A DNA stretch of 64,000 bases. It comes from Rhizobacter sp. SG703. GTDB taxonomy: Bacteria > Pseudomonadota > Gammaproteobacteria > Burkholderiales > Burkholderiaceae_C. Location: positions 186,001-250,000 of the forward strand of contig NZ_JAAZQK010000008.1 in assembly GCF_012275445.1 (NCBI RefSeq). The letters are read 5' to 3'. A program made the position numbers and the translations under genes. Positions 13,174 to 15,972 of this stretch are shown here, one piece after another; the first letter of the stretch is position 1, and every line of letters starts with the position of its first letter. The notes below the pieces were generated by a model, which did no database searches, had not been told where the DNA came from, and worked only from the letters and a program-made list of their open reading frames with translations.

Positions 13174-15972
13174 TCAGGGCAACCGCGGCCGGTGCGCCGC
13201 ATCCGGCGCCGCGATCCACGCCTGCAACTCCGCCACCCGCGCATGCTTCGGCGCCAGCCCGACGAAGGTCGTGTACGCCTTCAGCGCCTTCGCCTCGTCG
13301 CCGGCCTGCAGCTGCGCATCGCCCAGGTTCAGGTAGGCCAGCGCGCGGCTGCCGTCCATCTCGATGGCGCGTTCGAACCAGCGTGCCGCCTCGGCCGGCT
13401 TGCCGCGCTTGAAGTAGACGAAGCCGAGGTTGTTGGCCGCCAGCGCGAACACCGGCTGCAGCTTCAGCGCCTCGGTGAACGCCGCCTCGGCTTCGTCGTA
13501 GCGGCGCTCGCGGTACAGCGCGAGCCCGCGGTCGTTCGCGCGCTGCGCCGCGACGCGTGGCGCGACCGGCGCGGCGGCCGGCGTCGACAGCTTCACGTCG
13601 CCACCCTCCAGGTTCTTGATGACGACCTGCACCTCCTTCGCCGCACCCTTGCCGGCGCCGGGCTGCAGCGCCGCCGTCTTCGCGTCGTCGAGCTGCTTGT
13701 TCAGCTTGCTGGCGTCGGCATCGAGCTGCGGCGAATCGCCGCTCAGCGCCTCGCGGTCGGCCGGCAGCTCGAACACGAACTCGCCGCCTTCCGAGCCCGG
13801 CAGGCTGCCGAAGGCCGGCGTCTGGCGCGCGATGGCCGCCACCGACGGCGCGACGTAGGCCGCCAGCTCGGTGCCGGTGACCACGCCGTCGCCGTTCAGG
13901 TCGGCCTTGCCGTTCAGCGCCTGCAGCAGCGTCCAGGTGAACACCGAATGGCCCGCCGGGCCGTCGTCGGCCACCTGCTGGTCGGCGCCGCCGGCGGTCA
14001 GCATCTGCCGGCCCAGCCGCCGTGCGTTGTCGGCCAGGAAGTTCGCGCTGCTGCCCGCGCCGCCGCCGCGTGTGAGCCCCAGGCCCGAGTAACAGGCGTC
14101 GACCATGAACAGCACGTGCTTCGCGCTGATCGCCTCGGCCACCTCCTGCAGCTGCGGCATCGAGATCGCGTCCGACGCGAAGTCGGCCAGCGCCGCATCC
14201 ACCGGGATCAGGTAGCCGACGTCGCGTCCGCTCGTCAGCTTGCGCGTGCCGCCGTGGCCGGCATAGAACACCACCACGCGGTCGTCGCGCCGCACCTTCT
14301 TCGCATCGGCCAGCTTGTCGTTCAGCACGCGCAGGATGTTCGCGCGCGTCGCCTCCCCGTCGTAGAGCGCGGTCACGTTCTCGGCCTTGAAGCCGAAGCG
14401 CGTCACCAGCGTCTCCCGCACCGCGCGCGCATCGCGCACCGCATGGTGCAGCTGCGGCCATTTCGCGTACTGGTCGATGCCGATCACCAGCGCGTGGCTG
14501 TCGCGGTACAGCGCGTCGGCGCTCGCGGCCAGCGCGGCATCGGGCACCGCCTTGCGCGGCGCGTTGACGATGAACCGGCCGTCGCGCCAGGTCGCGAAGC
14601 GGTAGCCGTCGGCCACCAGCTGGTCGAGCACCAGCGGCAGCGCCTGCACCGTGCGGCCCTGGATGTCGTGGAACAGGACCACGCCACGGCCGGCCTTGTC
14701 GACCTCGCTCAGCACCCGCTCGGCGATGCTCTTGGGCACCGGGTCCGCCCAGTCCATCGAGTCGACGTTCCACATCATCGAGCGCAGCTTCAGTCCTTCG
14801 ACGGTGCTCAACGCGCCCTCGGTGCGAGCGCCGTACGGAAAGCGGAACAGCGACGACGGCTGGCGCCCGGTGGCGTCGAGCAACGCCTCGGTGTCGGTGG
14901 TCTCGGCACGCACCGCGTCGTCGCTCAGCTTGGCCATCACGCTGTGCGTGAAGCTGTGGTCGGCGAGCTGGTGGCCGGCCGCCAGCACCCGCTTCGCGAC
15001 CGCGCCGTTCGGGCCGAGCTTCGCGTGGCCCTGCGCATCGACGGTGCCGAGGTTGCGCCCGAGGTTGAAGAAGATTGCCGGTGCGTCGTAGCGCTTCAGG
15101 ATGTCGAGGATGTCGTCGGTGTACTTCGGGTGCGGGCCGTCGTCGAAGGTCAGCACCACGGTCTTCGGCGGCAGCGAGGCGCCGAAGATCTCGCGCGAAT
15201 CGGGCTCGTCGTTCGCACCGGACTTCGCCGACGGCAGGGTGTACGGCACGATGGTCGCGAAGTCCTTCAGGATCTGTTCGCGGTTGTAGAGCTTCGAGAC
15301 CTTGGCCACGTAGTCGGACCACTTCTCGCGCTGCAGCTCGATGCCGCGCTTCGCGAAGCGGCCGAACACCTCCTTCAGCTCGCGGTCGTAGGCCTGCTCC
15401 ACCTCGGCCAGCACCGCCAGGTCCTCGTTGGCGCGGCGCGCGAGCTTGAGCCCCGCGATCGACTGCGACTGCGCGTACTGCGCTGCGAGCCGGGTCAGGA
15501 ATTCCTTGAAGGCGAGGCGGTCGGCATCGAACCACGACGGCTCGCCCTCGATGCGGTCGAGCAGCCCTTCGAGCGCCGGCAGCGTCGCGGGGTTGGCGGT
15601 GTCGGCCGCAGCCGCCGCGAGCGCGTCGACGCGCTCCTGCAGGTCGTGGAACAGCAGCTGGCCGACGGCACCCACTGCGCGCCGCTCGGCCGGCTTCAGC
15701 GCGCGTTCGCCGCTCATCAGCACGACCATCTGGCGGTGCGCGGCGAGCACGCCGTCGGCGCGTTGCTGCAACTGGGCGGCGAGGGCGCCGGCCGACGGCG
15801 GTGCGGAGGCGCTCGTCGCGGCGGCGCTTGCAGCGACTGGCGCTGCCGATGCCGCCGGCGCGCTGCCGGCCGCCGGGCTGGCCGGCGTGGCGCCGCGGTC
15901 GCAAGCGGCCAGCGCAAGCAGCAGCGCAGCGAATGTCAACGGCGTCACAAGGTGTCGGGAAGAAATCTGCAT
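13174..15972 (-). CDS. lipoprotein fusing NodB-like polysaccharide deacetylase, caspase-like protease and TPRs
   Basis: A 932-residue envelope protein. [20 protein letters not shown] followed by LAACDRG is a lipoprotein signal. After an Ala-rich and helical region comes a CE4/NodB deacetylase domain: TFDDGP at 275-280, H339-x3-H343 (HSFTH) and RFPYG at 377-381. Residues about 510-780 are a C14 caspase-like domain with His573 in FYAGHGG and Cys627 in VDACYSG. Within it [12 protein letters not shown] (691-702) fits an EF-hand loop. Residues about 815-920 hold TPR motifs. All catalytic residues I can check are present. It is divergent from purB with 165 bases between. A more upstream start (MMKYRPP, 16038) is possible but would hide the signal peptide. 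Confidence 0.85.

Follow-up and report, generated by a model that had tools for sequence, protein, structure and literature searches.

The locus and its gene

The DNA analysed here (the window) is a stretch of 64,000 nucleotides from Rhizobacter sp. SG703. On its minus strand, positions 13174-15972 hold an uninterrupted open reading frame that starts with ATG, has one terminal stop and translates to 932 residues. Along the protein lie, in this order, a lipobox, a region of about 200 residues without a Pfam family, a CE4/NodB polysaccharide deacetylase domain, a Peptidase_C14 domain, an EF-hand-like loop and tetratricopeptide repeats (TPRs). The features are as follows.

13174..15972, minus strand: whole gene, a putative 932-residue lipoprotein with the order CE4 deacetylase, metacaspase, TPR (single open frame, Pfam domains, alignment with 14 and 17 unbroken relatives)
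15901..15972, minus strand: signal peptide, residues 1-24, with lipobox LAAC at 21-24; Cys24 predicted to be lipidated
15178..15789, minus strand: residues 62-265, conserved and largely helical, with no Pfam family assigned (Pfam, PDB and profile searches; helices taken from a low-confidence model)
14587..15174, minus strand: CE4/NodB polysaccharide deacetylase, residues 267-462, with D277, D278, H339, H343, R377, D404 and H435 (PF01522, match to a solved structure)
13738..14496, minus strand: metacaspase-type Peptidase_C14, residues 493-745, with H573, C627, D625 and the invariant R635 (PF00656, profile search of solved sequences, conservation)
13867..13902, minus strand: EF-hand-like loop of 12 residues, 691-702, in the p10-like region (DLNGDG in 18 of 18 proteins)
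13243..13533, minus strand: TPRs in three stretches, residues 814-910 (TPR_2, E 9.9e-17, and other Pfam TPR families)

Is this a single gene? The domain order is kept in 17 unbroken relatives aligned with the window protein, and nucleotide changes between the window gene and each of four relatives (L008, L009, L010 and L012) are concentrated at codon position 3 (40/32/136 by codon position for L008). Together with the open frame, these observations rule out a frameshift or a split into two genes in the window. The preliminary description of this DNA had placed everything in one 932-residue frame and had allowed for a frameshift or mis-set start that might conceal two genes; one gene was found. 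The window gene is real, and both of its enzyme halves look intact. A scan for promoters and terminators returned none of either.

Conservation was counted over 18 proteins, i.e. the window protein and 17 unbroken full-length relatives that are 50-94% identical to it. The counts leave out repeat entries (L001, L051 and L077, which are the window gene; L019, which is L008; L034, L035/L078 and L064, which are L069, L070 and L073), the broken copies L016/L020 (one gene, two in-frame stops) and L017 (frame changes), L036/L038/L074 (stop and frame change, short contig) and the single-domain matches (L002-L007, L026-L033, L037 and the C14 loci other than L064). The same residue is present in 18 of 18 at D277, H339, H343, R377, D404, H435, H573, D625, C627, R635, D691, N693, D695 and E702. 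The preliminary description had picked out the lipobox, three CE4 motifs, the caspase residues His573 and Cys627 and the C-terminal TPRs, and had considered both halves active; every one of these features was located in the window protein, and the appearance of activity holds as far as the active-site residues go.

Pairwise distances calculated from the CE4 and the C14 parts correlate at 0.975 (0.898-0.958 for other pairs of regions), which is what inheritance of the fusion as one unit would give.

The deacetylase half

Pfam Polysacc_deac_1 (PF01522) matches residues 267-396 with E 1.4e-26. CE4 enzymes are marked by a motif set of Asp-Asp, two His, RFPYG, Asp-Trp and Leu-x-His. The window protein carries TFDDGP (275-280), HSFTH (339-343) and RFPYG (377-381), and two more motifs, DSMDW (404-408) and LFHD (433-436); it and its relatives have the full set. 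Among solved structures, the best deacetylase match to this half is PgdA of Streptococcus pneumoniae (2c1g; residues 269-461, E 9.7e-31). The likeness is confined to the catalytic CE4 domain; PgdA is not known to have a protease or TPR part. Two 'predicted xylanase/chitin deacetylases' match nearly equally (E 3.9e-29 and 1.1e-28), so peptidoglycan is not the sole candidate substrate. PgdA is also the best NCBIfam match, at 118.5 bits, far under the cut-off of 800. When the low-confidence model of the whole protein was used with Foldseek, Bd3279, a peptidoglycan deacetylase, came top, among many TPR proteins.

In the window protein, the region ahead of the deacetylase, residues 62-265, matches no Pfam family above that family's cut-off, DUF7260 alone appearing below it; the other nine rows searched gave weak, scattered Pfam matches (best E 0.0017). 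No solved relative of the region was found at E 0.1. A profile built from it, run against 274 sampled genomes from the class, matched two: the genome of the window and G149. In both, the match lies within the fusion gene.

The protease half

Pfam Peptidase_C14 (PF00656) covers residues 493-690 (E 2.1e-21), with the catalytic pair in YAGHGG (570-575, His573) and DACYSG (625-630, Cys627). A profile of the domain, searched against solved sequences at E 0.01, retrieved 10 distinct PDB sequences, all of them metacaspases; Metacaspase-4, Metacaspase-9, Metacaspase-1 (Yca1) and MCA2 have the p20 region and the His/Cys dyad in common with the window protein. These four are eukaryotic proteins that are not known to carry a deacetylase. 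The best 50 Foldseek matches listed for the weak domain model include metacaspases, MALT1 and the Geobacter protein 3bij; Metacaspase-4, Metacaspase-9 and Metacaspase-1 (Yca1) are among these 50, but MCA2 is not.

Which bonds might the protease cut? Asp625, two residues ahead of Cys627, is invariant, and this residue and the resemblance to metacaspases are the sole argument for an Arg/Lys preference; we infer a metacaspase-type protease with predicted cleavage after Arg or Lys. Arg635, eight residues past the catalytic cysteine and followed by a Gly/Ser-rich stretch of variable length, is a candidate for self-processing. A cut between the two enzymes has less support, as the linker that joins them (residues 466-488) varies in sequence and has no invariant basic residue across the 18 proteins.

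The EF-hand-like loop and the TPRs

The preliminary description had placed an EF-hand-like loop within the protease. Its letters do lie at residues 691-702, and the position can be refined: the DLNGDG loop is just beyond the Pfam C14 match, which ends at 690, in the p10-like region. No EF-hand family matched the window protein in Pfam at E 0.1, and 'EF-hand-like' refers to the loop letters alone. DLNGDG is absent from the 15 C14 proteins outside the fusion family that were found by BLAST at 1e-5 and aligned over the loop position, three of which (L026, L028 and L055) have a partial acidic loop; the motif is thus not general for C14. A broken copy of the fusion family reads DTDNNG at this position. 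A motif script run on 30 C14 loci found the dyad in 16 of them. Four showed the loop pattern: two are fusion-family members (one being the window gene), and two, L052 and L053, have a DGD-type string some 25-30 residues further on. The loop comparison was therefore based on the alignment.

The periplasm would see outside calcium continuously, and the DLNGDG loop is more likely a predicted structural calcium site than a switch. AlphaFold models were made for the mature protein and, separately, for the protease domain (mean pLDDT 56.8 and 52.0). The part with DLNGDG falls below 50, too low for calcium geometry to be read from it, and the two models serve for fold type at most. In the model of the mature protein the TPR part is the best, with block pLDDT mostly 86-92.

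Predicted membrane tether and the single cysteine

A lipobox-like motif, read by eye from the alignment, is present in 16 of the 18 proteins; in the other two (L025 and L073) a hydrophobic segment at the N-terminus takes its place. The residue behind the lipobox cysteine of a lipoprotein bears on sorting to the inner or the outer membrane. It is Asp in the window protein and L008, and other residues are found in the remaining 14.

Cys627 is the sole cysteine of the mature chain in all 18 proteins (in 16 it is the only one past the lipobox cysteine, in L025 and L073 the only one at all). Seven neighbouring window genes, a small control most of which are probably cytoplasmic, have 36 cysteines per 3,349 residues, or about 10 expected in a chain of equal length. 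Read against that small control, a lone cysteine would fit a catalytic residue kept free in an oxidising compartment. From the lipobox and the single mature cysteine, we infer that the fusion protein is tethered to a membrane and faces the periplasm.

Distribution and genomic setting

When named genomes were scanned, most of the protein was matched at each of 11 loci: two in Rhizobacter, one in Albitalea, three in Variovorax, two in Mitsuaria, one in Roseateles and two in Pelomonas. Two of these loci, L016 and L017, are broken. Of 60 genomes (the window's own and 59 relatives), 13 match at E 1e-20 and eight, the own genome included, have a long match, one of them broken. Within the genus, a long match occurs in 5 of 10 other genomes, again with one broken. 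Five of 299 genomes of the phylum match at E 1e-40, the own genome included: three genes are full-length, one is interrupted by a stop and a change of frame, and one matches in the protease part only. C14 domains in general are more widespread (21 of 60 genomes in the order). The fusion gene is probably accessory, its distribution being patchy and some copies broken.

In Rhizobacter sp. OV335 (L016, 6463-8766, and L020) the gene has two in-frame stops, and its open pieces are 93-97% identical to the window protein; in Variovorax sp. E3 (L017) the reading frame changes, with open pieces 73-78% identical. These breaks represent either decay or sequencing error. A more distant copy, L074 (54-2547, genome G127, about 36-42% identical), lies on a contig of 7,985 bases and is interrupted by a stop close to where the enzymes join and, further on, by a frame change. 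Immediately before the fusion gene of another distant relative (L073) there is a transposase gene, at 5102-6160, and transposition is a possible route for patchy spread.

Ten of 19 loci have a divergent purB on their upstream side; in at least L011 and L017 the sequence available on that side is too short to show one. An LRR gene stands between purB and the fusion gene in L008 and L016, and purB is about 5 kb off in L009. In the window, an LRR protein gene lies beyond purB, at 17563-19107 on the plus strand; its relatives in L008 (4195-5517) and L016 (2675-4057) are 43-45% identical. The differing place of this gene with respect to purB suggests that the locus was rearranged or that there is more than one copy. 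On the downstream side of the window gene, as in L008 and L016, are genes for GTP cyclohydrolase II and a DUF1688 protein; in Variovorax L010 relatives of both are on the upstream side instead. The two overlap in the window (10604-13109, minus strand), and resemble the URC1/URC4 pair of uracil degradation. Further on, at 7270-10245 (minus strand), a gene encodes a large protein that resembles chitinases and has GH18, ricin-type lectin and CBM5/12 domains.

L069 and L070 have a lipobox and end 3 bases ahead of an mnmE gene, with a DnaA gene nearby in L069. No operon partner is common to the purB group and the mnmE group, and a conserved partner was dropped as a clue to function. A role in defence was likewise rejected: PADLOC gives a single match, to a model called 'caspase' (E 1.1e-17), and the identified neighbours are metabolic genes, the chitinase, a LysR regulator, a GST and the LRR gene.

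Relation to the Xanthomonas-type metacaspases

Is the fusion new? The preliminary description had taken it to be uncommon, and neither rarity nor novelty found support: a conserved architecture of this kind was published in 2012, which rules out a rare new fusion. Asplund-Samuelsson et al. (2012; PMC3501461) describe, in the text available, 17 'Xanthomonas-type metacaspases' of about 100 kDa with the order PF01522, metacaspase, TPR. These come from Xanthomonas, Xylella, Stenotrophomonas and two Acidobacteria, keep the Cys-His dyad, have one to three TPRs or sometimes none and, in three genera, form a two-gene operon with trmE/mnmE. The window protein has the same order and dyad. L069 and L070 are 51.1% and 49.7% identical to it over 882 residues, and this homology, with an mnmE adjacency as in the published description, supports membership, which is judged via that description and via L069 and L070 (same class). 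The window gene is almost certainly a Burkholderiales member of the family. It differs from the set described there in its lineage and in its setting, with purB divergent on the upstream side and the GTP cyclohydrolase II and DUF1688 genes downstream in place of the trmE/mnmE operon.

In the main text of that paper, as available, the terms EF-hand, calcium and Ca2+ are absent, and lipoprotein occurs once, about operon neighbours. Among the papers listed by a literature search that covered few subscription journals, there was no second one on a deacetylase-caspase fusion, and the available text of a survey of bacterial metacaspases (PMC4933709) does not have the word deacetylase. The preliminary description had also asked whether the architecture is common and already characterised. 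It is described, but no enzymology on a purified Xanthomonas-type metacaspase was found in the literature covered, which does not extend to the older Xanthomonas papers cited in it.

Possible function

What might such a protein do? The reading preferred here, with a probability of about 0.5 as a whole, is a peptidoglycan deacetylase that is tethered in the envelope and fused to a metacaspase-type protease. The protein would be anchored in a membrane and face the periplasm. Its CE4 half, with PgdA as best match, would strip acetyl groups from peptidoglycan N-acetylglucosamine, and the protease half would cut after Arg or Lys. The protease may mature by a self-cut after Arg635, a residue of the loop that follows the active cysteine. 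The DLNGDG loop would be used as a structural calcium site, and the TPRs may bind an envelope partner or substrate. The role would likely be in conditional envelope remodelling or a stress response rather than in an essential function. A more elaborate proposal is unlikely: here the protein would be a metacaspase of the periplasm whose one cysteine is always free, would mature by its own cut after Arg635 and would control the peptidoglycan deacetylase to which it is joined, so that envelope stress leads to wall modification.

Could the protease instead serve programmed cell death, with the caspase half as executor and the deacetylase as substrate or side activity? A deacetylase-caspase product of X. 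campestris pv. glycines cross-reacts with caspase and PARP antibodies, and the family has been tied to cell death there (cited in PMC3501461); a DEVD-cleaving, caspase-3-like activity accompanies death in Xanthomonas (PMC4006831), a report whose available text has neither the word metacaspase nor deacetylase. The enzyme reported is of 55 kDa and the family of about 100 kDa, and metacaspases cut after Arg or Lys (PMC3501461). As the window domain is metacaspase-like by profile, DEVD cleavage does not fit the predicted pocket, and a protein that faces the periplasm, as predicted, would not reach cytoplasmic targets. A death protease is improbable here.

Equally doubtful is the idea of the preliminary description that Ca2+ or a TPR-bound partner triggers a self-cleavage that frees or switches the deacetylase. 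The invariance of DLNGDG and Arg635 and the presence of a variable linker between the enzymes are in keeping with it, and self-processing was proposed to account for 55 versus 100 kDa (PMC3501461, available text); however, the linker offers no invariant basic residue, and in a periplasm open to outside calcium the loop would be constantly filled. Slightly less likely still is a scaffold with one or both halves inactive that binds wall polymer and partners: the CE4 lipoproteins BA0330 and BA0331 are, in the available text, reported to be without activity and the fusion gene is broken or absent in several relatives, but the checked active-site residues of both halves, the sole mature cysteine included, are the same in all 18 proteins down to 50% identity.

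The window copy, then, is one more member of a family that is known but has seen little testing. To that family the comparisons presented here add a lipobox in most members compared, a protease cysteine that is the only one of the mature chain in every member compared and a conserved DLNGDG loop. With an envelope-tethered deacetylase and metacaspase-type protease as the preferred reading, the site in the periplasm and the metacaspase-type pocket, both of them predicted, are relevant to the caspase-3-like cell death proposed for the family in Xanthomonas: DEVD substrates should stay uncut.
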